A DNA stretch of 23,072 nucleotides from the IMG/VR virus record IMGVR_UViG_3300025872_000317, positions 1-23,072 of that record; one strand, written 5' to 3'. This DNA is from a virus. Shown here piece by piece: positions 1,681-21,340 of the stretch. The notes below the pieces were generated by a model, which ran no database searches, was not told where the DNA came from, and worked only from the letters and a program-made list of their open reading frames with translations. The stretch's first letter is position 1, and each line of letters starts with the position of its first letter. Position numbers and translations under genes: made by a program.

Positions 1681-1854
1681 ATGACAACAGACGAGGCAAT
1701 CAAGTTCTACGGAACCAAGAAGGCGCTTGCCCAGGCGCTCGACATCTGGCCGCACGTGATCAGTCGATGGGGCAAATACCCGCCGATGGCAAGGCAGTAC
1801 GAACTGGAGGTCAAGACCAGGGGCGAGCTGAAGGCGGACCATGAACACAACTGA
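1681..1854 (+). CDS. Cro/YdaS-like helix-turn-helix regulator
   Basis: 57 residues starting MTTDEAIKFYGTKKALAQAL. The ATG at 1681 has AAAAGG ten bases upstream; longer in-frame extensions would run back through the promoter. The core YGTKKALAQALDI-WPHVISRWGK is a helix-turn-helix of the small Cro/YdaS type: first helix, tight turn, then recognition helix ending in xxSRWGK. It is followed by PPMARQYELEVKTRGELKA, which fits the usual P(P/E)xRAxxIexxTxGxLka ending. It should bind the symmetric sites just upstream and tune the divergent early promoters. The 3' end overlaps the replication gene by 14 bases. No CI-type partner is encoded opposite it. Biological role as Cro rather than antitoxin is inferred from context. 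Confidence 0.8.
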   Translation: MTTDEAIKFYGTKKALAQALDIWPHVISRWGKYPPMARQYELEVKTRGELKADHEHN

Positions 1855-3703
1855 AGCGGCGCTCGGCTACGCCGCGCTCGGTTGGCGCGTTCTGCCCATC
1901 CTGGCCGACAGCAAGGCGCCTGCGACGCAGCATGGCGTGCATGACGCCACGACCGACGAGGCGCAGTTGCGCGCGTGGTTTGAGCATTCGAATCACAACA
2001 TCGCCATCGCAGCCGGTCGGGATAGCGGTATCGTCGTGTTCGATGTCGACCCGCGCAATGGCGGTGAGGACGGCTGGGCTGAGTGGCTCGAGAACAACGG
2101 CAGCCTCGACGAAGGCGCGGTGCAGCTCACCGCTGGAGGCGGAACGCACCACGTCGCCATCTATGACGAATCCATCCGCAGCTGCAAGCTCGCCCAGGGC
2201 GTCGATCTGCTCTCCGACGGGCGTTACTTTCTGGTCTATCCCAGCGTCATCAACGGGCGCGCATACGAGTGGGAAGCATCAAGCGATCCGTTCGACGGCG
2301 TTGCGCCCGCGCCAGTTCCGGCACACTGGATCAGCGCGATCACAACCCGCAAGCGCGAAGCGCCCAAAACAACGGACGGGAATCTGATCACCGGTAACCG
2401 CAACAGCGGCTTAACCGCTCTGGCTGGCGCTATGCGGCGGCACGGCATGACGCAAACGGAGATCCTGGCTGCGCTCCAGATCGCCAATGAGGAACGCTGC
2501 GAGGTGCCGCTGCCGTCCTCTGAGATCGCCCAGATTGCGCGGTCTGTCAGCCGGTACGAACCTGAGTGGGACTACGCTGCCGACGTAGCTCTCGGCACGG
2601 AAGCGGTCGAAAACATCCTCGAGGCTGAGCGGGCGAAGCGCGCCGACTACTACCTGACCCGCGCGACATCCTATCTGTCACAGCCGACGCCAATACGCTG
2701 GGCTGTGAAGCGATGGATACCAGACCAAGGTCTGACCATGATCTACGGCGAGAGCGGAGCCGGTAAGACGTTCGTGCTGCTCGACGTTCTCTGCCATATG
2801 GCAGCTGGCATGCAGTGGCAAGGCCTAAAGACGAAGCCGGGCGTTGTCGTTCTGCTCGCAGGCGAGGGCCATCATGGTCTGCGGCAGCGGGTGGCCGCAT
2901 GGTGCATGCATCACCAGGTCGACCGCCTCGACAATCTATTGATCGCCAATAAGGCCATCGACGTCGACTCGCCTGCCGCTGCTATCCAGATCCTGCACGC
3001 CGTCATGGAAGCCACCGACGAGGAGGTGGCGTTCCTCGCCATCGATACTGTCAACAACCACATGTCCGGCGACGAGAACAGCGCGCGGGACACGAGGATG
3101 TTCTTGAACCAAGTGGCGGTTGTGTCATCAGCCCTAGGCGCAGGCGTCGCAATCAATCACCACGTCGGCGTGGCGGCAGAGGCCAAAACCCGCGCTCGAG
3201 GCTCCAGCGCGTGGAAGGCGTCGCTTGATGCGTCCATTCTGGTCACGAACGACGACGGCGCGATCACTGTAAAATGCACCAAGATGAAGGATGCAGAAGA
3301 GCCGGAGGAGATCTACGGAACGCTTACGCAAGTCGCTCTCGGGTGGTTTGATGACGACGGAGAAGAAATTAAAGGCGCGGTATTTGCTGCGACAGAAAAG
3401 CCAATAACTAACAAGACAACATCAAAGATAGACCAGCACCGGAAGCTGTTCGAGAACGCCTGGTTCGCCAGCGACAGAGAGGTTAAAAAGGGTTCGCCTT
3501 ATTTAGACCGAATGGTTTTCATTGAATATCTAATTAGCCAGAAGGGATTAACTGAGCAGTCGGCGAAGGCTTACGCAAAGCCCAGCCAGAAGGGCAAACC
3601 GATCTCTGATTTAATAGATGCAGATATTATTGAGGGGTTCGCGAACGGCTGGATTGTAAAGCATGATTACCATGCTAGCGCCATGATGGTCAGCGGGAAC
3701 TAA
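1841..3703 (+). CDS. bifunctional primase-polymerase / RepA-like helicase replication protein
   Basis: 620 residues. The N-terminal PrimPol domain (about 5-165) opens with ALGYAALGWRVLPI and carries the metal motif VFDVDPRNGG (D68, D70) and GGGTHHVAIY (H103, H104). A primase C-terminal linker (about 185-240) contains GNRNSGLTALAGAMRR. The ATPase domain (about 285-520) has Walker A GESGAGKT (303-310), Walker B FLAIDTVNN (D402), INHHVG (438-443) and RGSSAWKA (453-460), as in AAA_25/RepA-type hexameric helicases. The last 90 residues are more AT-rich in DNA and may hold an origin-binding domain. GAAGGCGG precedes the ATG. Such fusions prime and unwind phage DNA, here probably at the repeat region just downstream. 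The domain calls are firm. Confidence 0.9.
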   Translation: MNTTEAALGYAALGWRVLPILADSKAPATQHGVHDATTDEAQLRAWFEHSNHNIAIAAGRDSGIVVFDVDPRNGGEDGWAEWLENNGSLDEGAVQLTAGGGTHHVAIYDESIRSCKLAQGVDLLSDGRYFLVYPSVINGRAYEWEASSDPFDGVAPAPVPAHWISAITTRKREAPKTTDGNLITGNRNSGLTALAGAMRRHGMTQTEILAALQIANEERCEVPLPSSEIAQIARSVSRYEPEWDYAADVALGTEAVENILEAERAKRADYYLTRATSYLSQPTPIRWAVKRWIPDQGLTMIYGESGAGKTFVLLDVLCHMAAGMQWQGLKTKPGVVVLLAGEGHHGLRQRVAAWCMHHQVDRLDNLLIANKAIDVDSPAAAIQILHAVMEATDEEVAFLAIDTVNNHMSGDENSARDTRMFLNQVAVVSSALGAGVAINHHVGVAAEAKTRARGSSAWKASLDASILVTNDDGAITVKCTKMKDAEEPEEIYGTLTQVALGWFDDDGEEIKGAVFAATEKPITNKTTSKIDQHRKLFENAWFASDREVKKGSPYLDRMVFIEYLISQKGLTEQSAKAYAKPSQKGKPISDLIDADIIEGFANGWIVKHDYHASAMMVSGN

Positions 3704-3818
3704 GGGAACTTTTGGGAACTGTTCCGGAACTGTTCCGTTAGGCAAAGGCAATTGGCCGGGAACGAACGGAACTATACCTTAGGATAGTTCCCAGTTCCCG
3801 CCTGTTGCGCGGGGAACT
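3695..3818. repeat. GGAAC/GTTCC iteron-like cluster, candidate replication origin
   Basis: Eleven copies of GGAAC occur in 124 bases: forward at 3696, 3705, 3715, 3726, 3759, 3768 and 3813, and reverse at 3721, 3732, 3787 and 3794. The first four forward copies are 9, 10 and 11 bases apart, close to one helical turn. Two tandem 11-base palindromes GGAACTGTTCC occupy 3715-3736. The cluster starts in the last codons of the replication gene and fills the non-coding gap after it. Iterated sites beside a replication initiator are the usual layout of phage and plasmid origins; origin function is inferred. Confidence 0.6.
3757..3800. repeat. large nested inverted repeat inside the iteron cluster
   Basis: CGGGAAC (3757-3763) pairs with GTTCCCG (3794-3800), and GGAACTAT (3768-3775) pairs with ATAGTTCC (3784-3791). 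Together they form a 15-pair stem with a small internal loop (4 versus 2 bases) and an 8-base loop ACCTTAGG. No T-run follows on the plus strand, so it does not look like an intrinsic terminator. It could be a cruciform or unwinding element of an origin, or an RNA structure upstream of the DUF3310 gene. Confidence 0.6.
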
Positions 3819-3850
3819 GTTACGATGAAGCAACGAGAATGAGGTAGAAC

Positions 3851-4063
3851 GTGGGAAACGAAAACGCCAACTCGCGCCAGCACGGCGGAACGCACTACAT
3901 CGACAGGGTGGTGCAGCCGTGGGATTATATAGCGGCTAATAACTTGGGTTTTTTTGAGGGCAATATAATAAAATACGTCACGCGCTGGCAGGCCAAAGGC
4001 GGCGTCGCCGACTTGGAGAAGGCGCGGCATTATTTGGATAAGCTAATCGAGATATCCAAATGA
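3851..4063 (+). CDS. DUF3310 (SaV-like) phage protein
   Basis: 70 residues from a GTG start at 3851 with GAGG six bases upstream. The sequence has GGTHYIDRVVQPWDYI, then NNLGFFEGNIIKYVTRWQAK and ADLEKARHYLDKLI. This is the DUF3310 pattern HYxxxxxxPxDxI...FxxGNxIKYxxRxxxKxGxxDLxKAxxYLxxxI, at normal family length. The family is common in phage replication regions and is sometimes called nucleotide-kinase-like, but no activity is established. The stop overlaps the methyltransferase start (ATGA), implying coupled translation. The DNA is more AT-rich than the terminase genes downstream. Confidence 0.85.
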   Translation: MGNENANSRQHGGTHYIDRVVQPWDYIAANNLGFFEGNIIKYVTRWQAKGGVADLEKARHYLDKLIEISK

Positions 4064-5382
4064 ATATAAACGTCAAATATAAATTAACGGACGAATTAAT
4101 ACCTTATGCGCGTAATTCGCGCACGCATTCCGATGATCAGGTGGCGCAGATCGCCGCCAGCATCAAGGAGTGGGGCTGGACGACGCCGATCCTGGTCGAT
4201 GAGACCGGCGGCATCATCGCGGGCCACGGGCGGCTACTGGCGGCGCGTAAGCTGAAGATGGAGCAAGTGCCCACCATCGAGGCCGCTGGCTGGTCTGATG
4301 CACAAAAGCGCGCCTACGTCATCGCGGACAATAAGCTGGCGCTGAACGCAGGATGGGATGAGTCGCTCCTGGCGCTTGAGTTCGGTGAGCTTGAAGGGCT
4401 TGGGTTTGACGTTGAACTAACCGGGTTCAGCGCGGAGGAGATTGCGGCTCTGACGCCAGAGGAGGTTCCAGCGGCGCTTACCGATGAGGACGAGGTGCCG
4501 GAGCCGCCAGAGGAGCCGGTGACTAGGCTCGGAGACGTTTGGCTGCTTGGGCGGCATCGGGTGATGTGCGGGGACTCGACGAGCGTTGATGCCGTTGAGA
4601 AACTGATGGATGGTAGTCACGCACAGTTTTGCTTTACTAGCCCACCATACGCCGACCAGAGGGAATACAACGGCGGCAAAGAATTGAGCACCCAGCACCT
4701 TGCGACGTTTATTCGTGCCAGCAATGGGGTCTGCAATTTTTTTGCGGTAAATCTCGGTTTGAGCAGGAAGAACGGAGAAATAAACACTTATTGGGAAGAC
4801 TACATAGAAGAAGCACGTCAATGCGGCCTTAAGCTAGTGAGTTGGAACATATGGGATAGATCAGGAGAAGGCGGAAGCATCGGAAACATGACTGCACCGT
4901 TCCCGATCAATCACGAATGGATTTTTGTTTTTGCGAATGAGGCACCAAATTTAAGTCGCACAATTCCAAACAAACACGGCGGGAAAGGAGTTTCCGCAAC
5001 AATTCGCGGTGCAGATTCTGAATTTGCAGAACGCAAGAGCGTCGTCCATGAATTTGGCAAGCTTGGCACCGTCTTGAAATGCGGCGTCCAGAGAGGCAAG
5101 AACGAGCACCCGGCGATGTTCCCGGTGGAACTCCCACAGAGTTACATTGAAGCATGCACAAACAATGGCGGCATCGTTTATGAACCGTTTGGTGGAAGTG
5201 GAACGACGCTGATTGCATGCGAAAAGACCAGCCGCGTCGCCCGCCTGATGGAACTCGACCCAAAGTATTGCGACGTCATCATCAAGCGCTGGCAGGACTA
5301 CACTGGCAAGCAAGCAACACACGCAGAAACTGGACAACCTTTCGCGGAGGTTAGCAATGGCAACAAAGAAGCCTACACTTGA
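4060..5382 (+). CDS. ParB-domain / DNA methyltransferase fusion protein
   Basis: 440 residues. Residues about 5-95 form a ParB/Srx-like domain with IIAGHGRLLAARKL (52-65) and the phage-typical YVIADNKLALNAGW. After an acidic, proline-rich linker (135-155), the catalytic part begins LGDVWLLGRHRVMCGDST. Motif IV is TSPPY (193-197) and the AdoMet-binding motif I is EPFGGSGTT (375-383), followed by ELDPKYCDVII. The IV-before-I order is beta-class. TSPPY is most often seen in N4-cytosine enzymes, while N6-adenine enzymes usually have DPPY, so the target base is inferred. Residues about 195-340 would carry target recognition and are encoded by visibly AT-richer DNA. The enzyme could protect phage DNA from host restriction. 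No cognate nuclease is nearby. The 3' end overlaps the next gene by 26 bases. Confidence 0.88.
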   Translation: MNINVKYKLTDELIPYARNSRTHSDDQVAQIAASIKEWGWTTPILVDETGGIIAGHGRLLAARKLKMEQVPTIEAAGWSDAQKRAYVIADNKLALNAGWDESLLALEFGELEGLGFDVELTGFSAEEIAALTPEEVPAALTDEDEVPEPPEEPVTRLGDVWLLGRHRVMCGDSTSVDAVEKLMDGSHAQFCFTSPPYADQREYNGGKELSTQHLATFIRASNGVCNFFAVNLGLSRKNGEINTYWEDYIEEARQCGLKLVSWNIWDRSGEGGSIGNMTAPFPINHEWIFVFANEAPNLSRTIPNKHGGKGVSATIRGADSEFAERKSVVHEFGKLGTVLKCGVQRGKNEHPAMFPVELPQSYIEACTNNGGIVYEPFGGSGTTLIACEKTSRVARLMELDPKYCDVIIKRWQDYTGKQATHAETGQPFAEVSNGNKEAYT

Positions 5383-5776
5383 AACTTCGGATGTAAAAAA
5401 GACAAACGGGCACGGCGGAGCGCGTCCAGGCGCAGGTCAGCCGCCGTTTAAGCCGACTGACGCTGAGCGAAAGCAGGTCGAGGCGCTGTCAGGGTACGGT
5501 TTGCCTTTCGAGCAGATCGCGGTTCTCGTGCGCGACGGCATTGACGCCGACACGCTGCGCAAGCACTTTTCTCAAGAGCTGATGTCCGGCAAGGCGAAGG
5601 CGAACGGGCAGGTCGGCAAGACCCTGTTTCAGAAGGTCATGGCCGGCGACACCGCGGCGGCGATTTGGTGGAGCAAGACACAGATGCGGTGGAAGGAGGT
5701 TCAGCACCACGAGCACACGGGCGTTGATGGCGCTCCGATTGAGATCCGAAAGATCGAGCGCGTGATTAAGCGTTGA
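5357..5776 (+). CDS. terminase small subunit
   Basis: 139 residues. The ATG has GGAGG seven bases upstream, although the start lies inside the methyltransferase gene. The N-terminus is lysine-rich and contains GGARPGAGQPPFKPTD. A helix-turn-helix-like segment follows (EALSGYGLPFEQIAVLVRD, GIDADTLRKHF), then KTLFQKVMAGDTAAAIWWSK and TQMRWKEVQH. The GRPxFxPTD...YG(L/I)PxxxIAxLI...TLRKHFxxEL...GDxxAxIWWxKTxxGW pattern marks the short DNA-binding terminase subunits seen just upstream of large subunits. It should recognise the packaging site and load the large subunit. The product is basic at the C-terminus. Function rests on motif plus position. Confidence 0.8.
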   Translation: MATKKPTLETSDVKKTNGHGGARPGAGQPPFKPTDAERKQVEALSGYGLPFEQIAVLVRDGIDADTLRKHFSQELMSGKAKANGQVGKTLFQKVMAGDTAAAIWWSKTQMRWKEVQHHEHTGVDGAPIEIRKIERVIKR

Positions 5777-7002
5777 GCACGCTCCAGATCCAAACCCCAG
5801 AATGGGGACTCCCGTTCCTGCAACCGTCCCGCTACAAGGGCGCGCATGGCGGACGAGGCTCTGGCAAGTCGCACTTCTTTGCCGAGATGGTCGTCGAGGC
5901 GCATCTGATGGACCAGCGGCGGCGCACGGTCTGCGTGCGTGAGGTTCAAAAGAGCCTGGCGCAGTCGGTCAAGCGCCTGCTAGAGCTCAAGATTGAGCAG
6001 ATGGGCGCGGGCGCGTACTTCGAGGTTCAAGAGTCGGTCATCAAGTCGAAGCACGGCGACGGCTTGATTATCTTCCAGGGGATGCAGAACCACACGGCGG
6101 ACAGCATCAAGTCGCTTGAAGGCTACGACTGCGCCTGGTGCGAGGAGGCGCAGAGCCTGTCGCAGCGCAGCCTGGACCTGTTGCGTCCGACGATCCGCAA
6201 GCCAGGCTCTGAGCTTTGGTTTACGTGGAACCCATCGCAGGCGACCGACCCGGTAGACGTGCTGTTGCGCGGCCCGACACCGCCGCCAGACGCGGCGATC
6301 GTTGAGGTCAACTTTAGCGACAACCCTTGGTTCCCCGATGTGCTGCGCGCCGAGATGGAATACGACCGGGCCAGAGACCCGGAAAAGTATCAGCACGTCT
6401 GGCGCGGCGCTTACCTGACGAACAGCGAGGCGCGCGTGTTTCGCAATTGGAAGGTCGAGGAGTTCGAGGCACCGAAGGACGCGATCCATAGGCTCGGCGC
6501 AGACTGGGGCTTCGCTGTCGACCCGACCGTGCTGGTGCGCTGCCATCTGGTCGGCAGGACTTTGTACGTCGACCACGAGGCCTACGCGCTGGGTTGCGAT
6601 ATCACGGCGACGCCGGATCTGTTCATGTCGATCCCAGAAGCCGAGAAGTGGCCGCTGGTTGCCGACAGCTCCAGGCCCGAGACGATAAGCCACATGCGAA
6701 AGAATGGCTTCCCGAAGATCACAGCCGCAGTGAAGGGCGCGAACAGTGTCTCGGAAGGCATCGAGTGGCTGAAGTCCTACGACATCGTCGTGCACCCGCG
6801 CTGCCAGCACGTCATCGACGAGCTGTCGCTCTACAGTTACAAGACGGACACCTTGACAGGAGCCGTGCTTCCTGTTCTGCAGGACAGAGACAATCATTGC
6901 ATCGATGCGCTAAGATATGCGCTCGAGGGCGTCCGCAGGGCGCAGGCTGCGCGGCCAGTCGCCGAGGTGACGCCGCTGGCGGTGGCGAATCGCTGGAGAT
7001 AG
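5773..7002 (+). CDS. terminase large subunit (PBSX-like)
   Basis: 409 residues from a TTG at 5773 overlapping the preceding stop (TTGA). The first internal ATG lies after the ATP-binding motif, so a non-ATG start is needed. The ATPase has Walker A GGRGSGKS (26-33), the acidic Walker B/coupling segment YDCAWCEEAQSLS (118-130) and LWFTWNP (148-154). The nuclease domain has GADWGF (D244), VADSSRPE (D298) and DRDNHCIDALRYALE (371-385), matching the acidic triad of RNase H-fold terminases. It cuts concatemers and pumps DNA into the prohead through the portal encoded next. The fold resembles the PBSX/Terminase_3 group rather than P22 gp2, a common mosaic combination. Confidence 0.92.
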   Translation: MSTLQIQTPEWGLPFLQPSRYKGAHGGRGSGKSHFFAEMVVEAHLMDQRRRTVCVREVQKSLAQSVKRLLELKIEQMGAGAYFEVQESVIKSKHGDGLIIFQGMQNHTADSIKSLEGYDCAWCEEAQSLSQRSLDLLRPTIRKPGSELWFTWNPSQATDPVDVLLRGPTPPPDAAIVEVNFSDNPWFPDVLRAEMEYDRARDPEKYQHVWRGAYLTNSEARVFRNWKVEEFEAPKDAIHRLGADWGFAVDPTVLVRCHLVGRTLYVDHEAYALGCDITATPDLFMSIPEAEKWPLVADSSRPETISHMRKNGFPKITAAVKGANSVSEGIEWLKSYDIVVHPRCQHVIDELSLYSYKTDTLTGAVLPVLQDRDNHCIDALRYALEGVRRAQAARPVAEVTPLAVANRWR

Positions 7003-11532: not shown

Positions 11533-12309
11533 ATGATCTGGTGGGGGCCGCTACTTCAGGGCGGGGCAGAGCTACAGTCAGCAGCCGGTGCAATCACCGG
11601 CACGCTCAATGTCACAGAGGCGGATGACACCCTATCCAGCACAGGCGCGCTGGAGATCTCTGGCAGCCTCAATGTCACCGAAGAAGGCGACAGCCTTTCC
11701 TCGACTGGCGCTCTGGCGATCTCTGGCTCTCTGGCCGTCACTGAAGAAAACGACGCCCTCGCCTCCACCGGCGCGCTGGCCATCAGCGGCAGCCTATCCG
11801 TCACCGAAGATGACGACACGCTCGCATCGAGCGGCACTTCCGGCGCGACGGGCAGCCTGAATGTCACCGAGGAAGGCGACACGCTCACGGCCACCGCAAC
11901 CGTCACCCAGTTGGTTGGCGGCGGCGGGATGGGCAAGCAGAAGCGCCAGCGCGGCTGGGCGAATGAACGCGCCAGGCTGGAAGCGTCGCTCCAGACCGAA
12001 ACCGCAGCGCAGGAGGTCAAGACTGCCACCAAGATCTTGCGCGCGTCTGACTCTGAATCCGCACGACGGGTCGCCGACCTGGTACGCGAGTATGAATCCG
12101 CCCGCGCGACGCTGGAACAGCTGCGAGACGAGGTGGAGCGCCTGCGCGTCGAGACCGATCGCTCCGAGCGCCTGCGGGATGAACTCGAGACCGCCGCTAA
12201 GGTCGTCGAGATATTTGCTCAGGAAGAGGCCGAGCTGCTCGAGATCTTGGACATCATCGACGAGATGGAGTCAAGGGCGTTGCTGATAGCACTTGGCATT
12301 GCTGCGTAA
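11533..12309 (+). CDS. repeat protein with tandem 21-residue VTE units and coiled-coil tail
   Basis: 258 residues. After MIWWGPLLQGGAELQSAAGA come five consecutive 21-residue units (23-127) of consensus GSLNVTEEGDTLSSTGALAIS, in which VTE, the aspartate, the second leucine and a following S/T-G are best kept. A glycine hinge (VGGGG) joins them to a basic segment GMGKQKRQRGWANERARLEA and a long charged coiled coil (about 140-250) rich in heptads such as RDEVERLRVETDRSERLRDE. Repeats of this VTEADDTLSSTG kind are widespread in phage structural proteins and are probably short beta-hairpin or solenoid units on the virion surface. Joining them to a basic helical tail is less usual. No clear ribosome site is visible. 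Confidence 0.65.
   Translation: MIWWGPLLQGGAELQSAAGAITGTLNVTEADDTLSSTGALEISGSLNVTEEGDSLSSTGALAISGSLAVTEENDALASTGALAISGSLSVTEDDDTLASSGTSGATGSLNVTEEGDTLTATATVTQLVGGGGMGKQKRQRGWANERARLEASLQTETAAQEVKTATKILRASDSESARRVADLVREYESARATLEQLRDEVERLRVETDRSERLRDELETAAKVVEIFAQEEAELLEILDIIDEMESRALLIALGIAA
11599..11913 (+). repeat. five tandem 63-base in-frame repeats
   Basis: Five 63-base units encode the VTE repeats at residues 23-127 of the containing gene. Units 1-4 are closest in their first half (GGC AGC CTC AAT GTC ACC GA-type start); unit 5 diverges after its leucine. Unit number could change by slippage or recombination. Confidence 0.7.
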
Positions 12310-15201: not shown

Positions 15202-15655
15202 GGCAGCGCTGACCGAGATCGGCCTGGCGTCCTACGTGTTCGACCTGTCGCCGGAGCAACTGGAATACGCTCGGCGCAGGCTGGACGCCATGATGGCCGA
15301 TTGGAACGGCAAAGGCATTCGCCTCAGCTATCCTATTCCCGCCTCCCCAGAGCAAGGCTCGATCAACGACGAGACCTTCGTGCCCGACAGCGCCAACGAG
15401 GCTGTAATCCTAAACCTTGCCCTTAGATTAGCGCCCTCGTACGGCAAAGCCGTCATGGTCGAGACGCGAATCGCAGCAAAAGGCGCATACGATACCGTTC
15501 TGCAACGCGCAACAGCGCCAATTGAGCAGCAGATGCCCGGCACCATGCCAGCAGGCGCAGGCAACAAATACTGGCGCGTTGCGGATGACCCATTCCTCGA
15601 GCCGCCGAGCGATCCTGTCGAAACAGGGCCGGAAGGCGTTCTGGAGTTTTACTGA
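15173..15655 (+). CDS. tail accessory factor / head completion protein (P22 gp4-like)
   Basis: 160 residues, against 166 in P22 gp4. GTG start at 15173 inside the previous gene with GAGG upstream. It begins MAYTKRQFVEAALTEIGLA, then YVFDLSPEQLEYARRRLDAM and MADWNGKGIRLSYPIP, continues through NEAVILNLALRLAPSYGK and closes with FLEPPSDPVETGPEG. These are the hallmarks of gp4: helical start, ALxxLDxMMAxWxxxGIRL..., and an exposed NxAVxxNLAxxLAP helix. In P22 twelve copies bind the portal after packaging and are the platform for gp10 and the tailspikes. Here tailspike genes follow directly. The stop shares a base with the next ATG (TGATG). Confidence 0.9.
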   Translation: MAYTKRQFVEAALTEIGLASYVFDLSPEQLEYARRRLDAMMADWNGKGIRLSYPIPASPEQGSINDETFVPDSANEAVILNLALRLAPSYGKAVMVETRIAAKGAYDTVLQRATAPIEQQMPGTMPAGAGNKYWRVADDPFLEPPSDPVETGPEGVLEFY

Positions 15656-17667
15656 TGCCCACCATCAATCAGCTACCTCGCCTCGACTCGCTCGCAAGCG
15701 GTGACCAGCTGCCCGTCTACGCTACCGCGCAGGGCGATTCTCGGCGCATGTCGGTGGAGTTGCTGCAGGATTACATGCAGGACAACCTGAACCTGCCAGA
15801 TAACTCAGACGAGGTGAACTTTCTACAGGCTGGGACCGGCGCGGTTACCAGGACGGTGCAGGCTAAGCTGCGTGAAACTGTATCTTTAAGAGACTTCGGT
15901 GCTGATCCAGCCGCTTCCGCAGCAGTCAACAACGCAGCAATAAATGCAGCTTTTGCATCTGGAGCAAAACGCGTCATAGCAGAGCCAAACGCTGTTTATG
16001 CCGTTAGTGCTCAAATCGCAATACCGTCCACGCTAGAATTCGACGGGCAAGGCTGCACGTTTAGTGTAACCATGCCTGCGAGCATTGTGTTTTTCCAAGT
16101 TTTTGCTTCTGCATCAATCAAAAACCTCACAATAAATTTCAACAATGGATACTGCTACATTGGAATTAACTTTCCTAATTCAAATCTTGGCTATATTGAG
16201 CTGACCAATGTTGCTGTTAAAAATGTAAACGACATTGCGACCACATACGGAACAATCCCGATAAACATTAATGCAAACGGGAATGAAATCCGTCTTGATG
16301 GCATCACGATAGAAAACATCACCAAACGAACAAACAACGATCCATTGGATCTTTTGGGCGGCATCGAAGGAATTTACGCATTCTTGCCATCGTCAACATC
16401 TGTTGCGCTTGGTGGATACATGCGCAACATTGAAATCAGAAACCTTCTGACTGTGAACTCTGTTGGGACTCAAGTTTACGAAGTTGCAAATGCTATCTAT
16501 GTCGCATGTTTGCCCGCTTCTGACAATCGAGCAAGGCTTGTTATTGAGAACGTGCGTGGATATGACTTTGGAAAACGACTGATAAAGACACAATGCAGCG
16601 ATCTGATAATTCAAAACGTCTATGCTGAAGCAATAAACGTTATTGCACAGGAGGCATTGAGCCTTCAGGATCAAGAACCTGCGCCTCCGGCAGTTGTGGC
16701 CAGATCGTATAACGTCAAAGTCAAAGACGTTGTAATCCGAGGGAAAATGCGCTACGGGATTGTTTCAAGTGTTAATGACGCGCTGATTGATGGTGCCGAT
16801 ATTGATATTTCACTAACCGGCACGAATTCTTTTTACGGCAACAACGCGCTAGGAATTGGTCTCAGCGGCGATAGCACGACAATAACAAACAGTTTTGTTA
16901 GCGCAAAGATTTGCTTGTTTATTAGCCGAGAGTATGGAACCTATGCTGGAGATTTGAAAAACCTTCTTATTTCAAACTCAACTTTTAAGACAAATGAATC
17001 TGGGTCGCTGTTTTTAGAGTTTTCGGCGGCAACAACAATTGCGTCATTAGAGTCTGGTTTGTTTAGCAATATTGTTTTTGATGCTTCTGATTTCCCTGGC
17101 GGAAACACGGTTCTTGGTAATTCAACAAATCAATCTGGATTTGTCAGCTTTAACAACTGCGTATTGATTGACAACGACGCCACAACCAACGGCGGCAGTT
17201 ATTTTACTTTTGACAAATTCAAGACAATAAACGTCACCGGCTTCACGCACTTAAACAAGAACGCAACAAGTCTTATAAACAGAACCTTCCGCGTTTTTCG
17301 CTGCGGATCTTTGACTCTTGCGTCTCTTAATTTACAGGCCAAACCCAACTCGGCATCTATTACGACAGACACGGTTGACAGCTTGATTGTGTCCGGCATG
17401 TATGTTGACCCTGCAACCACAAACGCTATCGTCATGACAACGACAACGGCATCTAGGCTATCTGGCGTTAATCGCTCGAAAGTCTCTTTTAACGATGTCG
17501 CATCAAGACAGGGGTGCTTGTTTGCACCGGAGTTTTCATCTGGAACGACTGCGCAGCGCCCATCTTCTGGATTGATCGCCGGACAGCAATACTGGGATAC
17601 CACATTGGTAAAGCCGATCTGGTGGAACGGTACAGAATGGAAAGACGCAGCAAACACGACGGTGTGA
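15655..17667 (+). CDS. tailspike-like receptor-binding protein 1 (beta-helix)
   Basis: 670 residues. The N-terminal module (1-85) reads MPTINQLPRLDSLASGDQLP, RRMSVELLQDYMQDNLNLPD and AKLRETVSLRDFGADPAAS. It is shared with the two tailspikes downstream and probably anchors the spike to the tail. The centre (about 110-620) is a long series of Asn/Ile/Val/Ser-rich short strands (NIEIRNLLTVNS, ARLVIENVRGYDFGKRLIK) typical of a right-handed beta-helix. The C-terminal cap is AQRPSSGLIAGQQYWDTTLV, KPIWWNGTEWKDAANTTV. The module edge lacks the GDGxTDD found in the other two. Central DNA is much more AT-rich than its ends. GGAG lies eight bases upstream. Presumably binds or degrades surface glycan; no catalytic residues identified. 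Confidence 0.82.
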   Translation: MPTINQLPRLDSLASGDQLPVYATAQGDSRRMSVELLQDYMQDNLNLPDNSDEVNFLQAGTGAVTRTVQAKLRETVSLRDFGADPAASAAVNNAAINAAFASGAKRVIAEPNAVYAVSAQIAIPSTLEFDGQGCTFSVTMPASIVFFQVFASASIKNLTINFNNGYCYIGINFPNSNLGYIELTNVAVKNVNDIATTYGTIPININANGNEIRLDGITIENITKRTNNDPLDLLGGIEGIYAFLPSSTSVALGGYMRNIEIRNLLTVNSVGTQVYEVANAIYVACLPASDNRARLVIENVRGYDFGKRLIKTQCSDLIIQNVYAEAINVIAQEALSLQDQEPAPPAVVARSYNVKVKDVVIRGKMRYGIVSSVNDALIDGADIDISLTGTNSFYGNNALGIGLSGDSTTITNSFVSAKICLFISREYGTYAGDLKNLLISNSTFKTNESGSLFLEFSAATTIASLESGLFSNIVFDASDFPGGNTVLGNSTNQSGFVSFNNCVLIDNDATTNGGSYFTFDKFKTINVTGFTHLNKNATSLINRTFRVFRCGSLTLASLNLQAKPNSASITTDTVDSLIVSGMYVDPATTNAIVMTTTTASRLSGVNRSKVSFNDVASRQGCLFAPEFSSGTTAQRPSSGLIAGQQYWDTTLVKPIWWNGTEWKDAANTTV

Positions 17668-17684
17668 TAAATAACCCATTAACC

Positions 17685-17706
17685 GAGACCCCTCCCCATG
17701 CCCACC
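17685..17706 (+). repeat. direct repeat copy 1, at the 5' edge of tailspike gene 2
   Basis: GAGACCCC, five variable bases, then ATGCCCACC (the first nine coding bases of tailspike 2). The same arrangement with identical spacing recurs at 19681-19702, so the whole tailspike 2 gene lies between the two copies. Similarity continues for about 11 more bases (…AAxCAGCT). Confidence 0.65.
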
Positions 17707-19680
17707 ATCAACCAGCTATCAACGATCGGCGAAGTCACCTCGGCAGACACGCTCCCAGTGTTTGACGAGTCGAACGGCGACGCCAGGAAGATGTCGGTGC
17801 TGCAGTTGCAGGACTATCTGGAAGAAAACCTGAATCTTGCGGACGTTGACTTCCTGCAAGCAGGCACCGGCGCAGTCGAGAGGACTGTGCAGAGCAAGCT
17901 CCGGGATGTGGTGTCGGTGAAGGATTTTGGGGCTGTAGGAGATGGCGTAACAGACGACATTCTGGCATTCACGAGAGCGCTTGCAACGGGCAAGGACGTT
18001 CTGGTGCCTGAAGGAACCTACAGGCTTGCGCCGACGGCGGTGCAAACCATTGCGAATTTGGGCGAACAGCTTATTTATGGAGAAGGAACGGCGACACTAA
18101 AGGTCGATCTTGCATCGAGCATTCAGCTTTTTGCATTTTATGGGCCGGTATCTCTAGAAAATCTTTCTGTTGATTTTAATCAAAAGTCTTGCCTGATTGC
18201 ATTTTCTTGGGCACCAAACGTTGGTCAAATTAATATCAGCAACATTCGAGTATTCAATCTCAAAGATACAAATAGCTCAACGTCATCTATAACTTTCAGA
18301 ATCTCTGCTGCTGGGAACACCTTTGACATTGAAAACATAAAAGCGACCTCGATGCTTAAGCGAGGAAACGGCACCATCACGGATGGGCCTGGCGCTTACA
18401 ACATGATTTACGTGCTCAATGATTCCGCAAATGTCAGCACAAAAGGATCAATTCGAAACGTGTTTGCTAGTGAAATTCACAATATAAACGCGTCAGATCA
18501 GATCATTTTTGAAGATACTGCTGTCATTTTTATCGCAACCCACGGCGACGACAAAGAAAACAACGTCGTGATAGACGGCGTGCATGGTTACAACTTCGGC
18601 AAAAGAATAGTAAAAACGCAAGCGTCTAACGTTTCAATTTCAAACGTGGTTGGCAACGTTACAGCCGAAGACACATTGTGCGTTATTTCTATCCAGCAGG
18701 ACGCGGCAACATATGGCGTTAAGACTGGATGCTCCGCGACCAACATCGTTGGTTACGGGAAGATGAACTCAGTGATTGAATGCAGCGCGTTGGGGTCAAA
18801 AATAAATAACGTTGTCGGACAAACAACGCCAAGCTCAATTGCCGGTGGGTCTGTAAACGACGCAAATACGTTGATCATCGCAGGAGACAACATCGTTGTT
18901 GACGGTGTTTGGTCTAACTCTCAGAGAGACATTGCAATCGGAACCGACGTTCAGATAGTTAAAAATCTGACACTAAAAAACGTGCACTTGGTCATCGGAA
19001 GCAGCAAACCTTACGGCGTAACCATTTACAACAGAAGCAACACATCAGGTTTTGATGGAATTTTGATTGATGGTCTTACAGCAACAACAAACGCCGATGT
19101 TTCACAAATTAACGGGCCGGTTTGGCTTGTTGATTATTTAAACGGAACAACCAAAAAAGGTCGAAACTTAGCGATAAAAAATGTTTTTATACAATCAAGC
19201 ACAACAACATCGACTTCTGGTTACGGAGTGGCGTGCAGTTTTGTAGAAAATGTTTCAATCGATACTGTAAAATATATTAATTTGAGCGGTGGTAGTCATC
19301 ACAGGGGTGTTATTACAACTTCCTGTAGCAATGTAAACATATCAGATGTAACGGTTGAGGGAGCAATTCAAATTGGTGTGCAATTGGTCACCTGCACCGG
19401 AAGAAACACTGTTAGCAAGGTTTATAGCTCAGGCGCTACGACTGCCGCCGTATTTAATACAAACTCAAGCGACGTAACCGTCATGAACTGCAACACCACG
19501 CAAGTTAGCGCAGCCACAACGCCTGCGTGGCAAAACTCCAAAATGACCGTCGGCACAACCGCTAACAGACCGACCGTCGGACTGACTCCTTATTTTACAC
19601 AATACTTCGACACAACCATCACCAAGCCGATTTGGTGGGACGGTAGCGTCTGGAAGGATGCTACAGGCACAACCGTATAA
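17698..19680 (+). CDS. tailspike-like receptor-binding protein 2 (beta-helix), paralogue of protein 1
   Basis: 660 residues. The N-terminal module begins MPTINQLSTIGEVTSADTLP, has KMSVLQLQDYLEENLNLADV and passes into DFGAVGDGVTDD (76-87), the classic entry to a pectate-lyase-like beta-helix. The central region aligns by eye with tailspike 1: VIDGVHGYNFGKRIVKTQ matches VIENVRGYDFGKRLIKTQ, and ISAAGNTFDIENI matches INANGNEIRLDGI. The cap ANRPTVGLTPYFTQYFDTTI, TKPIWWDGSVWKDATGTTV is also shared. The two genes therefore look like a diverged tandem duplication. No good Shine-Dalgarno is visible (GAGACCCCTCCCC precedes ATG), in contrast to most genes here. The AT-rich middle suggests imported or fast-evolving specificity. 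Enzymatic activity is not assignable. Confidence 0.82.
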   Translation: MPTINQLSTIGEVTSADTLPVFDESNGDARKMSVLQLQDYLEENLNLADVDFLQAGTGAVERTVQSKLRDVVSVKDFGAVGDGVTDDILAFTRALATGKDVLVPEGTYRLAPTAVQTIANLGEQLIYGEGTATLKVDLASSIQLFAFYGPVSLENLSVDFNQKSCLIAFSWAPNVGQINISNIRVFNLKDTNSSTSSITFRISAAGNTFDIENIKATSMLKRGNGTITDGPGAYNMIYVLNDSANVSTKGSIRNVFASEIHNINASDQIIFEDTAVIFIATHGDDKENNVVIDGVHGYNFGKRIVKTQASNVSISNVVGNVTAEDTLCVISIQQDAATYGVKTGCSATNIVGYGKMNSVIECSALGSKINNVVGQTTPSSIAGGSVNDANTLIIAGDNIVVDGVWSNSQRDIAIGTDVQIVKNLTLKNVHLVIGSSKPYGVTIYNRSNTSGFDGILIDGLTATTNADVSQINGPVWLVDYLNGTTKKGRNLAIKNVFIQSSTTTSTSGYGVACSFVENVSIDTVKYINLSGGSHHRGVITTSCSNVNISDVTVEGAIQIGVQLVTCTGRNTVSKVYSSGATTAAVFNTNSSDVTVMNCNTTQVSAATTPAWQNSKMTVGTTANRPTVGLTPYFTQYFDTTITKPIWWDGSVWKDATGTTV

Positions 19681-19891: not shown

Positions 19892-21340
19892 ATGCCGACT
19901 ATCAACCAGCTCCCGTCTATCGACGAAGTGTCAGGCGGCAACCAGATCCCGACCTATTACTCAGGCGGCGGTGATGCGAGGAAGATGTCGGTCAATCTGC
20001 TGCAGGACTATCTGCAGGACAATCTTAACTTCCCGGACAACGCTTCAGAAGTAACCTACAACCCCGCAGGCACCAGCGCGGTGGCGAGGACGGTGGAGTC
20101 GAAGCTACGCGACGTTGTGAGCGTTAAAGACTTCGGGGCGGTTGGGAATGGCGTGGCGGATGATACGGGGGCGATTCAGGCGGCGATTGATTACGTCTAC
20201 GGAATCGGCGGAGGAACTGTTGCTGGAGCATTGAACTGCAAAACAACCGCCACCTTGAAAATGGGTAAAAATGTTATTTTTTCAGGTGGTTCGATTGTAT
20301 GTTCTGCAACCAACGTTCCAATTATTCAAGTAGACAAAGACTCATTAAACTTTTTTTGGCAAATCAAAGACATGACGCTTGCGTATGCTGCGCAGCAAAC
20401 TGGGGCGTCTGCTGCTGCAATCCAAATATCAACAACCGGCAAGGTTGCTTACGAGTTTTTGATTGAAAACATTTTAGTAGACAAAGCGACATATGCGATT
20501 TATCTGCCAAACCTGACCAGTTGCCGCGCTTTTTTGGGGAGATTTGTAAACATTAACGCTAACAAATGTTCAGGAGCGGCATTCACAATTTACGGCGATC
20601 TATCTGGCGGAGCAAATACAACGCTTTCATTTATTGACTGCTGGTCTGTACAGACCGTTGGGTCTGAAATTGCAGGCTCTTCGTTGTGTGATATCAGAAA
20701 CACGCAAAACGTATACATAAACAACTTGGCCGGGGATCATCTTCAGGGAGCAACTCTTGCAAAGTTTGTTTCTTGTAGCGCCGTTATTGACGCGATGGCT
20801 CTTGAGTCATGCGACCAATCTGCGTCGTCTGGATTGCTTAACACCTACAATTTTAGCGGCGGAAATTATGTTGTTGGTACGCTCACAACGACAGATAACA
20901 ACATCAATATCAGCGGATCCGCAAGCGCCTCTATGGTTCGTGTTGACAGCAGCGCACAAGTAAACATTGGGTTGCTTGAAAACAAAAACACAAGCGTCAC
21001 TGACACCAGCTCGGACAACTACTACACAGTTTCGATAGACGGCACCGGGTTTGTTAGAAACGAGCAGTGGAAATCAACTGGATATACTCCTGCAATCAGC
21101 ACAAATGAATTTGCAGCAAACGTCAGGAAGCGCGTTGAACGGTTAAACGGAATTGATTACACGCGATTCGAGGGCGGAAAGCTTGTTATTTACGGAACAG
21201 CCGCTCCAACCACCGGCACTTATGCTGTTGGTGATCAGCTGATCAACACTGCTCCAGTGGCCGGAGGCAATGTTGGCTGGGTCTGTACAACTGCAGGAAC
21301 ACCCGGCACTTGGAAAACATTTGGTGCTATTTCTGCGTAA
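19892..21340 (+). CDS. tailspike-like receptor-binding protein 3 (shorter beta-helix)
   Basis: 482 residues. GAGG nine bases upstream. The N-terminal module MPTINQLPSIDEVSGGNQIP, ARKMSVNLLQDYLQDNLNFP and RTVESKLRDVVSVKD leads to DFGAVGNGVADD (80-91) and AIQAAIDYVYGIGGGTVAGA, the usual start of a pectate-lyase-superfamily helix. The central strands do not visibly align with tailspikes 1 and 2. The C-terminus differs too: after RKRVERLNGIDYTRFEGGKL comes GTAAPTTGTYAVGDQLINTA, PVAGGNVGWVCTTAGTPGTW, a small beta cap common on phage fibres. So only the anchor is shared, giving a third specificity on the same platform. The central DNA is AT-rich. Function by fold and context. Confidence 0.82.
   Translation: MPTINQLPSIDEVSGGNQIPTYYSGGGDARKMSVNLLQDYLQDNLNFPDNASEVTYNPAGTSAVARTVESKLRDVVSVKDFGAVGNGVADDTGAIQAAIDYVYGIGGGTVAGALNCKTTATLKMGKNVIFSGGSIVCSATNVPIIQVDKDSLNFFWQIKDMTLAYAAQQTGASAAAIQISTTGKVAYEFLIENILVDKATYAIYLPNLTSCRAFLGRFVNINANKCSGAAFTIYGDLSGGANTTLSFIDCWSVQTVGSEIAGSSLCDIRNTQNVYINNLAGDHLQGATLAKFVSCSAVIDAMALESCDQSASSGLLNTYNFSGGNYVVGTLTTTDNNINISGSASASMVRVDSSAQVNIGLLENKNTSVTDTSSDNYYTVSIDGTGFVRNEQWKSTGYTPAISTNEFAANVRKRVERLNGIDYTRFEGGKLVIYGTAAPTTGTYAVGDQLINTAPVAGGNVGWVCTTAGTPGTWKTFGAISA

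Follow-up and report, generated by a model that had tools for sequence, protein, structure and literature searches.

The stretch 3696-3817 of the virus record IMGVR_UViG_3300025872_000317 is very probably the replication origin of the phage, an origin of the iteron type situated directly 3' of the gene for its own initiator. The analysed DNA, called the window below, comprises positions 1-23,072 of the record, which is classed as linear and is thus possibly a fragment. This reading is favoured because relatives keep both the array of repeats and a hairpin after the same helicase gene. A first-pass annotation, made from the letters of the window, had proposed a candidate origin here and had named two outcomes that would speak against it, an equal density of the GGAAC element elsewhere in the phage and homologous genes without downstream repeats. 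Both were tested and the proposal withstood them. Beyond the view of that annotation, the motif differs from lineage to lineage, while the hairpin is preserved and so, in most cases, is the repeat order.

The initiator gene (1841-3703, plus strand) encodes, according to Pfam matches, a Prim-Pol (AEP) domain, a PriCT_1 domain and an AAA_25 domain, the last being a RepA-like helicase of the RecA fold; a C-terminal winged helix is predicted by modelling. The array begins within the final codons of this gene and then fills the gap 3' of it. Its eleven GGAAC/GTTCC elements lie on both strands: iterons 1 (3696-3700), 2 (3705-3709), 3 (3715-3719), 5 (3726-3730), 7 (3759-3763), 8 (3768-3772) and 11 (3813-3817) on the plus strand, and iterons 4 (3721-3725), 6 (3732-3736), 9 (3787-3791) and 10 (3794-3798) on the minus strand. 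The annotation had described the elements as filling the gap after the gene, which holds except for iteron 1, since it overlaps the last codons (GGG AAC TAA).

The first four non-reversed plus-strand copies are spaced by 9, 10 and 11 bp, the helical phasing that had been pointed out. Iterons 3 and 4 make up a perfect palindrome GGAACTGTTCC (3715-3725), abutted by a second one made up of iterons 5 and 6 (3726-3736), so that the tandem pair noted earlier is indeed present. The interrupted stem of 15 pairs (3757-3800) was likewise found. Its outer arms, CGGGAAC (3757-3763) and GTTCCCG (3794-3800), hold iterons 7 and 10, and its inner arms, GGAACTAT (3768-3775) and ATAGTTCC (3784-3791), hold iterons 8 and 9. 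The inner arms enclose the core ACCTTAGG to form a hairpin (3768-3791, assigned to no strand). A spacer element, GGCAAAGGC (3741-3749, plus strand), bears a weak resemblance to the GRCAARGC word of some relatives. The DNA fold of 3690-3830 has a z of -3.67, and no shuffle was equally stable; no obvious AT-rich DNA unwinding element lies within these limits.

There are 11 GGAAC elements in 140 bp, compared with 61 in the other 22.9 kb of the window, a 30-fold difference in density that answers the enrichment check set by the annotation. For GGGAAC the numbers are 7 in the array and 5 in the rest of the window (229-fold). The busiest other 140-bp stretch of the window contains 4 GGAAC elements, and when the whole window was put through dinucleotide shuffling 300 times, the highest count was likewise 4. 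With every 5-mer admitted, self-overlapping words included, 3 of 40 shuffles reach at least 11, and for this reason a 5-mer count does not decide the matter by itself. A 6-mer test of the gap gave no equally high value in 200 shuffles. This test and the comparison with relatives are the decisive evidence for the array.

A gene of the P22_Cro family (Pfam) is situated immediately upstream of the initiator gene, and the genes 3' of the array are those of DUF3310, then a methyltransferase, then the terminase. An operator through which the Cro-like protein or the C-terminal domain of the helicase controls the DUF3310 and methyltransferase genes, or the initiator itself, would also typically have repeats and palindromes, and initiators often autoregulate. 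However, the array is 3' of the initiator; at the divergent Cro promoter no cluster was found. No promoter-like match lies inside the array, the sole match being at 3900-3928. The gene that follows differs among relatives, whereas the array and hairpin stay, and ten or more helically spaced sites with a hairpin exceed the needs of a phage operator. An operator is thus quite unlikely.

Elsewhere in the window, three large neighbouring genes (15655-17667, 17698-19680 and 19892-21340) have the N-terminal start MPTINQLP... in common and look like tail-spike paralogues with a common adapter. The N-terminal half of the protein of 11533-12309 has repeated units like GALEISGSLNVTEEGDSLSSTG. The large terminase of the window (5773-7002) and that of the phage L012 (1745-2962, minus strand) are nearly identical in their C-terminal halves and different in their N-terminal halves; judged from the two sequences, this is a mosaic exchange within the gene.

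Arrays in relatives

The array is retained in seven contigs whose proteins are 95-100% identical. The array of L004/L020 is a natural variant, near-identical to that of the window except that it lacks iteron 11 and its surroundings. In L012, a more distant phage whose C-terminal domain is 71% identical, the eleven GGAAC elements and the hairpin are kept and the intervening sequence has changed. At the corresponding site, arrays spelled with other motifs were seen in five of six phages whose genes are homologous, namely GGGACA in L021 and L025, GGTACA in L022, and GGTTCA in L023 and L024. The remaining one, L026, has no array 3' of the helicase gene, and its C-terminus is divergent. Relatives in culture include the Alteromonas phages PB15 and XX1924, the Idiomarinaceae phage 1N2-2 and Salicola CGphi29.

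An enriched hexamer is present within 350 bp 3' of the helicase stop codon at 72 of the 82 non-redundant homologous loci (shuffle p<0.01), showing that genes homologous to the PrimPol-helicase gene are usually followed by repeats. About one in eight relatives has no array at p<0.01, including L026, L063, L079, L090, L131 and L137. The fitted motifs are GGGACA, GGAAC, GGTACA, GGTTCA, CGTAACA, GGTAACA, CGTTACA, CGAACA, GCCACA, CGTGACA, GGTGCA, CGATACA, GGTATA and others; CGGACA was also seen. In the relatives most of them read NNNNC and then A.

The arrangement is more constant than the spelling. Many lineages keep the repeat order >>>>(>)<>>>|<<< around the hairpin, that is, four to five forward repeats, one to two reversed, two to four forward, the hairpin, and at least two reversed. 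The spacing between repeats of the same orientation peaks at 8-11 bp across relatives. In part of the relatives a GRCAARGC word, similar to GGCAAAGGC, is found roughly 40 bp ahead of the loop of the hairpin, between blocks of repeats; it is independent of the iteron spelling, and it is enriched but loose.

Since the downstream genes differ among relatives, the array goes with the helicase gene. The N-terminal primase also varies, being Prim-Pol/PriCT_1 in the window, Prim-Pol/PriCT_2 in L243, and Toprim_3 in L110, L114, L136 and L217. One could imagine that the array serves packaging, partition or recombination and is next to the gene by coincidence, since in the window the terminase genes start about 1.5 kb downstream, but it is the helicase gene, not the terminase, that the array accompanies in relatives. 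In L188 the array is at 24.2-24.6 kb and the terminase at 17.4-19.0 kb; L022, with the array at 34.2-34.45 kb and the terminase at 66-1845, is a weak case, as the ends of this linear record are maybe arbitrary. That the array is a site of this sort is hardly credible.

BLASTN of the window's gap against phage records gave only a chance match, because each lineage re-spells the motif. A DNA search with 3400-4300 matched the methyltransferase only. The GGGAACTGTTCCGGAAC contigs L010, L011, L014, L016, L018 and L019 look like chance matches. In L009, where no clear homologue was established, eight GGAAC-type sites (3318-3440) lie near a gene that is unlike the AAA_25 helicase gene; an origin of the same design may here serve a different replication protein.

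DnaA boxes (TTWTNCACA) occur in 13 of 178 downstream regions and in 66 of 5035 control windows (1.3%; p 8e-7). Three boxes occur in each of L276, L191, L298 and L310; two of the three directly precede the iterons, close behind the stop. The cumulative GC skew, which the annotation had put forward as a check, does have its minimum near the array, at 0.6-2.7 kb, in five of six genomes, but at a divergent gene switch, and in L187 the minimum is far away. Being confounded by gene orientation, the skew is uninformative.

The conserved hairpin

The relatives have, between their inward-pointing repeats, a hairpin with the common core ACACCCCTTTAGGGGTGT. The window has GGAACTATACCTTAGGATAGTTCC at this place, and the core of its hairpin, ACCTTAGG, is a variant that is shorter than the consensus. 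In most relatives the strongest inverted repeat has this build: an iteron is followed by a pyrimidine-rich inner stem, then by the loop and lastly by the iteron in mirror image. Its usual distance from the stop is some 75-105 bp.

Words of the core whose stem has 4 pairs or more were found in 39 of 82 downstream regions and in 3 of 2362 control windows, using a word list compiled after inspection of those same relatives. Because the list came from the same loci, an independent scan of viral contigs was made for ACACCCCTWTAGGGGTGT. It gave at least 120 stretches, with 80 loci among the matches listed. Among these matches, an array is present in 76 of the 80 loci and a helicase-family open reading frame in 69. 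The hairpin is at most 250 bp 3' of that frame in 66 of those 69, a count made up of 58 found by script and 8 palindromic-loop loci that were listed on the minus strand and whose strand assignment is arbitrary.

The same hairpin together with CGGACA-type repeats was seen, with no adjacent AAA_25 helicase gene, at L266 (position 7604), L192, L225, L227, L230, L240 and L258. PF13481 has no match anywhere in the records of L266 (34 kb), L240 (33 kb) and L225 (27 kb). Perhaps a different helicase serves these loci, or perhaps the records are fragments.

On the gene-sense strand of 89 non-redundant hairpins, CTTTAG was found in 57 and CTAAAG in 3 (p 3e-14 if the hairpins are independent). This bias suggests that the hairpin is recognised as a single strand by the primase or the helicase. 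The hairpin probably has a function of its own and is more than a by-product of the repeats.

A stable hairpin right after a stop codon might also act as RNA, terminating or attenuating transcription after the primase-helicase gene. An intrinsic terminator has a GC-rich hairpin and a T-run, but a T-run follows the hairpin in only 2 of 34 relatives, and at the hairpin of the window there is no terminator-like match. Furthermore, the arms of the hairpin are the iteron of the respective lineage, many copies of which lie outside the hairpin. A role as RNA is therefore extremely unlikely.

The C-terminal domain and the repeat motif

The predicted iteron-binding winged-helix domain, residues 529-620, is encoded by 3425-3700 (plus strand). 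In the AlphaFold model of residues 501-620, for which the alignment was drawn from the loci of relatives, the chain forms a winged helix with a pLDDT above 90 in the core. The domain has no Pfam or PHROG family of its own and no PDB sequence match. Its fold neighbours, none with a Z above 7.2, are winged helices of a generic sort, and hence no particular family is claimed for it.

The motif covaries with the predicted recognition helix. A partial Mantel test of motif against recognition helix, given the helicase distance, yielded r 0.47 for 68 non-redundant proteins, with p 0.002, the smallest value attainable with 499 permutations; the sequences are related and not independent, so that the covariation is inflated and the p-values are optimistic. 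The partial correlation is lower for the wing (0.21) and the first helices (0.19), and the helicase columns average about 0.

The column that best follows the motif across relatives is residue 577, which in the window is Ala577 of the predicted recognition helix (codon 3569-3571, plus strand). Threonine at this position is associated with GGGAC at all 20 loci and leucine with GGTAC at all 3. Glutamine is found at 18 of 20 GTAAC loci and 3 of 3 GTTAC loci, and also with GGTAC (3) and CGTAC (2). Valine, isoleucine or alanine occupies the position at 6 of 7 GGAAC loci, in keeping with the alanine of the window, and also at 2 GTAAC loci. Exceptions include L052 (Val with GTAAC) and L118 (Lys with GGAAC); L106 (Ile577, scored as GTAAC) is an apparent exception, its hairpin arms being GGAAC. 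L310 and L276, which are 82% identical over the helicase and the C-terminal domain, differ in the helix region at 569, 577 (V/Q) and 584 and have arrays of GGAAC and GTAAC, respectively. The model and the covariation support the guess of the annotation that the C-terminal domain of the initiator recognises the iterons.

From the repeats, the hairpin, their position, conservation and covariation we infer the following course of binding, melting, priming and replication start. The C-terminal winged helix of the primase-helicase would bind the GGAAC iterons about one helical turn apart. As both arms of the array are directed towards the hairpin (3768-3791) between them, the bound subunits would be loaded around the dyad. 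The core of the hairpin might then melt or extrude, the RecA-fold helicase would be loaded onto the exposed strands, and the fused primase would lay the first primers. Each lineage would re-spell its iteron together with the recognition helix, making the origin private, with the hairpin core staying nearly constant.

Comparison with known origins

Multiple short, helically spaced repeats beside the initiator gene characterise iteron origins and are found here. In Streptococcus phage Sfi21 a 302-bp non-coding origin lies directly 3' of the initiator-helicase gene, as in the window; its record annotates this stretch as 'origin of replication, phage inhibitory sequence'. It contains short repeats of the same format in both orientations (AGTAAC nine times, AGTTAC five times), and a Prim-Pol + PriCT_1 primase is nearby. 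It differs in that the helicase is of the DUF5906/Pox_D5 type and not AAA_25 (HMM negative), the primase is a separate gene, an AT-rich block is present, and no hairpin with a conserved core was seen in the origin sequence. In phage 7201, the second S. thermophilus case, the stretch examined has no replication genes.

The helicase of P4 alpha belongs to SF3. The crr region of P4 is situated directly 3' of the alpha (primase) gene, and the iteron GGTGAACA ends in NNNAC(A), with copies in both orientations that are 9-11 bp apart in places. Unlike the window, P4 has two separate iteron sites (crr and ori1), no conserved hairpin was seen there, and a putative rho-independent terminator lies between the alpha gene and crr. 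Since the P4 record annotates the origin about 5 kb from crr, the array might by analogy be a copy-control or helper region, with synthesis beginning at a separate ori. However, P4 has iterons at both places, whereas the window and five further phage genomes, of which four are annotated 'complete' and one 'genomic sequence', show no second cluster. Each of the five has one array, 84-276 times over background, and no other equal stretch has more than 2 copies of the motif, which argues against a second P4-like site. It is very unlikely that the array is only such a helper.

In those parts of PMC7581432 that deal with them, the C-terminal domain of SaPI Rep recognises short iterons directly 3' of its gene and SCCmec Cch2 recognises iterons downstream of its own; the helicase fold and the iterons are different, and the same parts report no common hairpin. 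The P4, SaPI and Sfi21 systems have repeats directly 3' of an initiator-helicase gene, as the window does, but a D5/SF3 (or MCM-like) helicase. The proposed origin of the window would thus work like this kind without being a member, because its helicase is AAA_25.

In the archaeal plasmid pRN1 a stem-loop right after orf904 is required for replication (PMC4234260). It too is 3' of a prim-pol-helicase-winged-helix gene, but it is a 100-nt stem-loop without an iteron array, and the helicase is SF3. The window, having iterons and a hairpin of conserved sequence, does not have a structure-only origin of the pRN1 type. In the RepA/ori system of PLE in Vibrio cholerae the DNA-binding domain of the initiator and the origin covary and are mutually specific (PMC8263062), but RepA_N is an initiator without primase or helicase, and the semi-palindromic iterons are about 30 bp long.

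The kind of origin is therefore already known; it is set apart here by the AAA_25 helicase, the common hairpin and the iterons that are re-spelled along with the recognition helix. No description of a conserved hairpin with repeat-domain covariation was found in the open-access literature, and a text search with the hairpin sequence found no paper in open-access text. The chances seem evenly balanced that this is a broad class of origins, in which a near-invariant, strand-asymmetric hairpin accompanies AAA_25 helicases with AEP or TOPRIM primases, the iterons, re-spelled with a few recognition-helix residues (577 foremost), amount to a readable specificity code, and the loop is a universal site of melting or priming.

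The array and hairpin offer a way to find replication origins in many uncultivated phages from sequence only. The relatives provide initiator domains naturally paired with their origin motifs, and on these a code of protein-DNA specificity becomes directly testable. They also raise the question of why iterons are re-spelled repeatedly while the hairpin is kept. A reason open to testing would be that the phages thereby evade nucleases directed at origins, an idea put forward for PLE versus ICP1 (PMC8263062).
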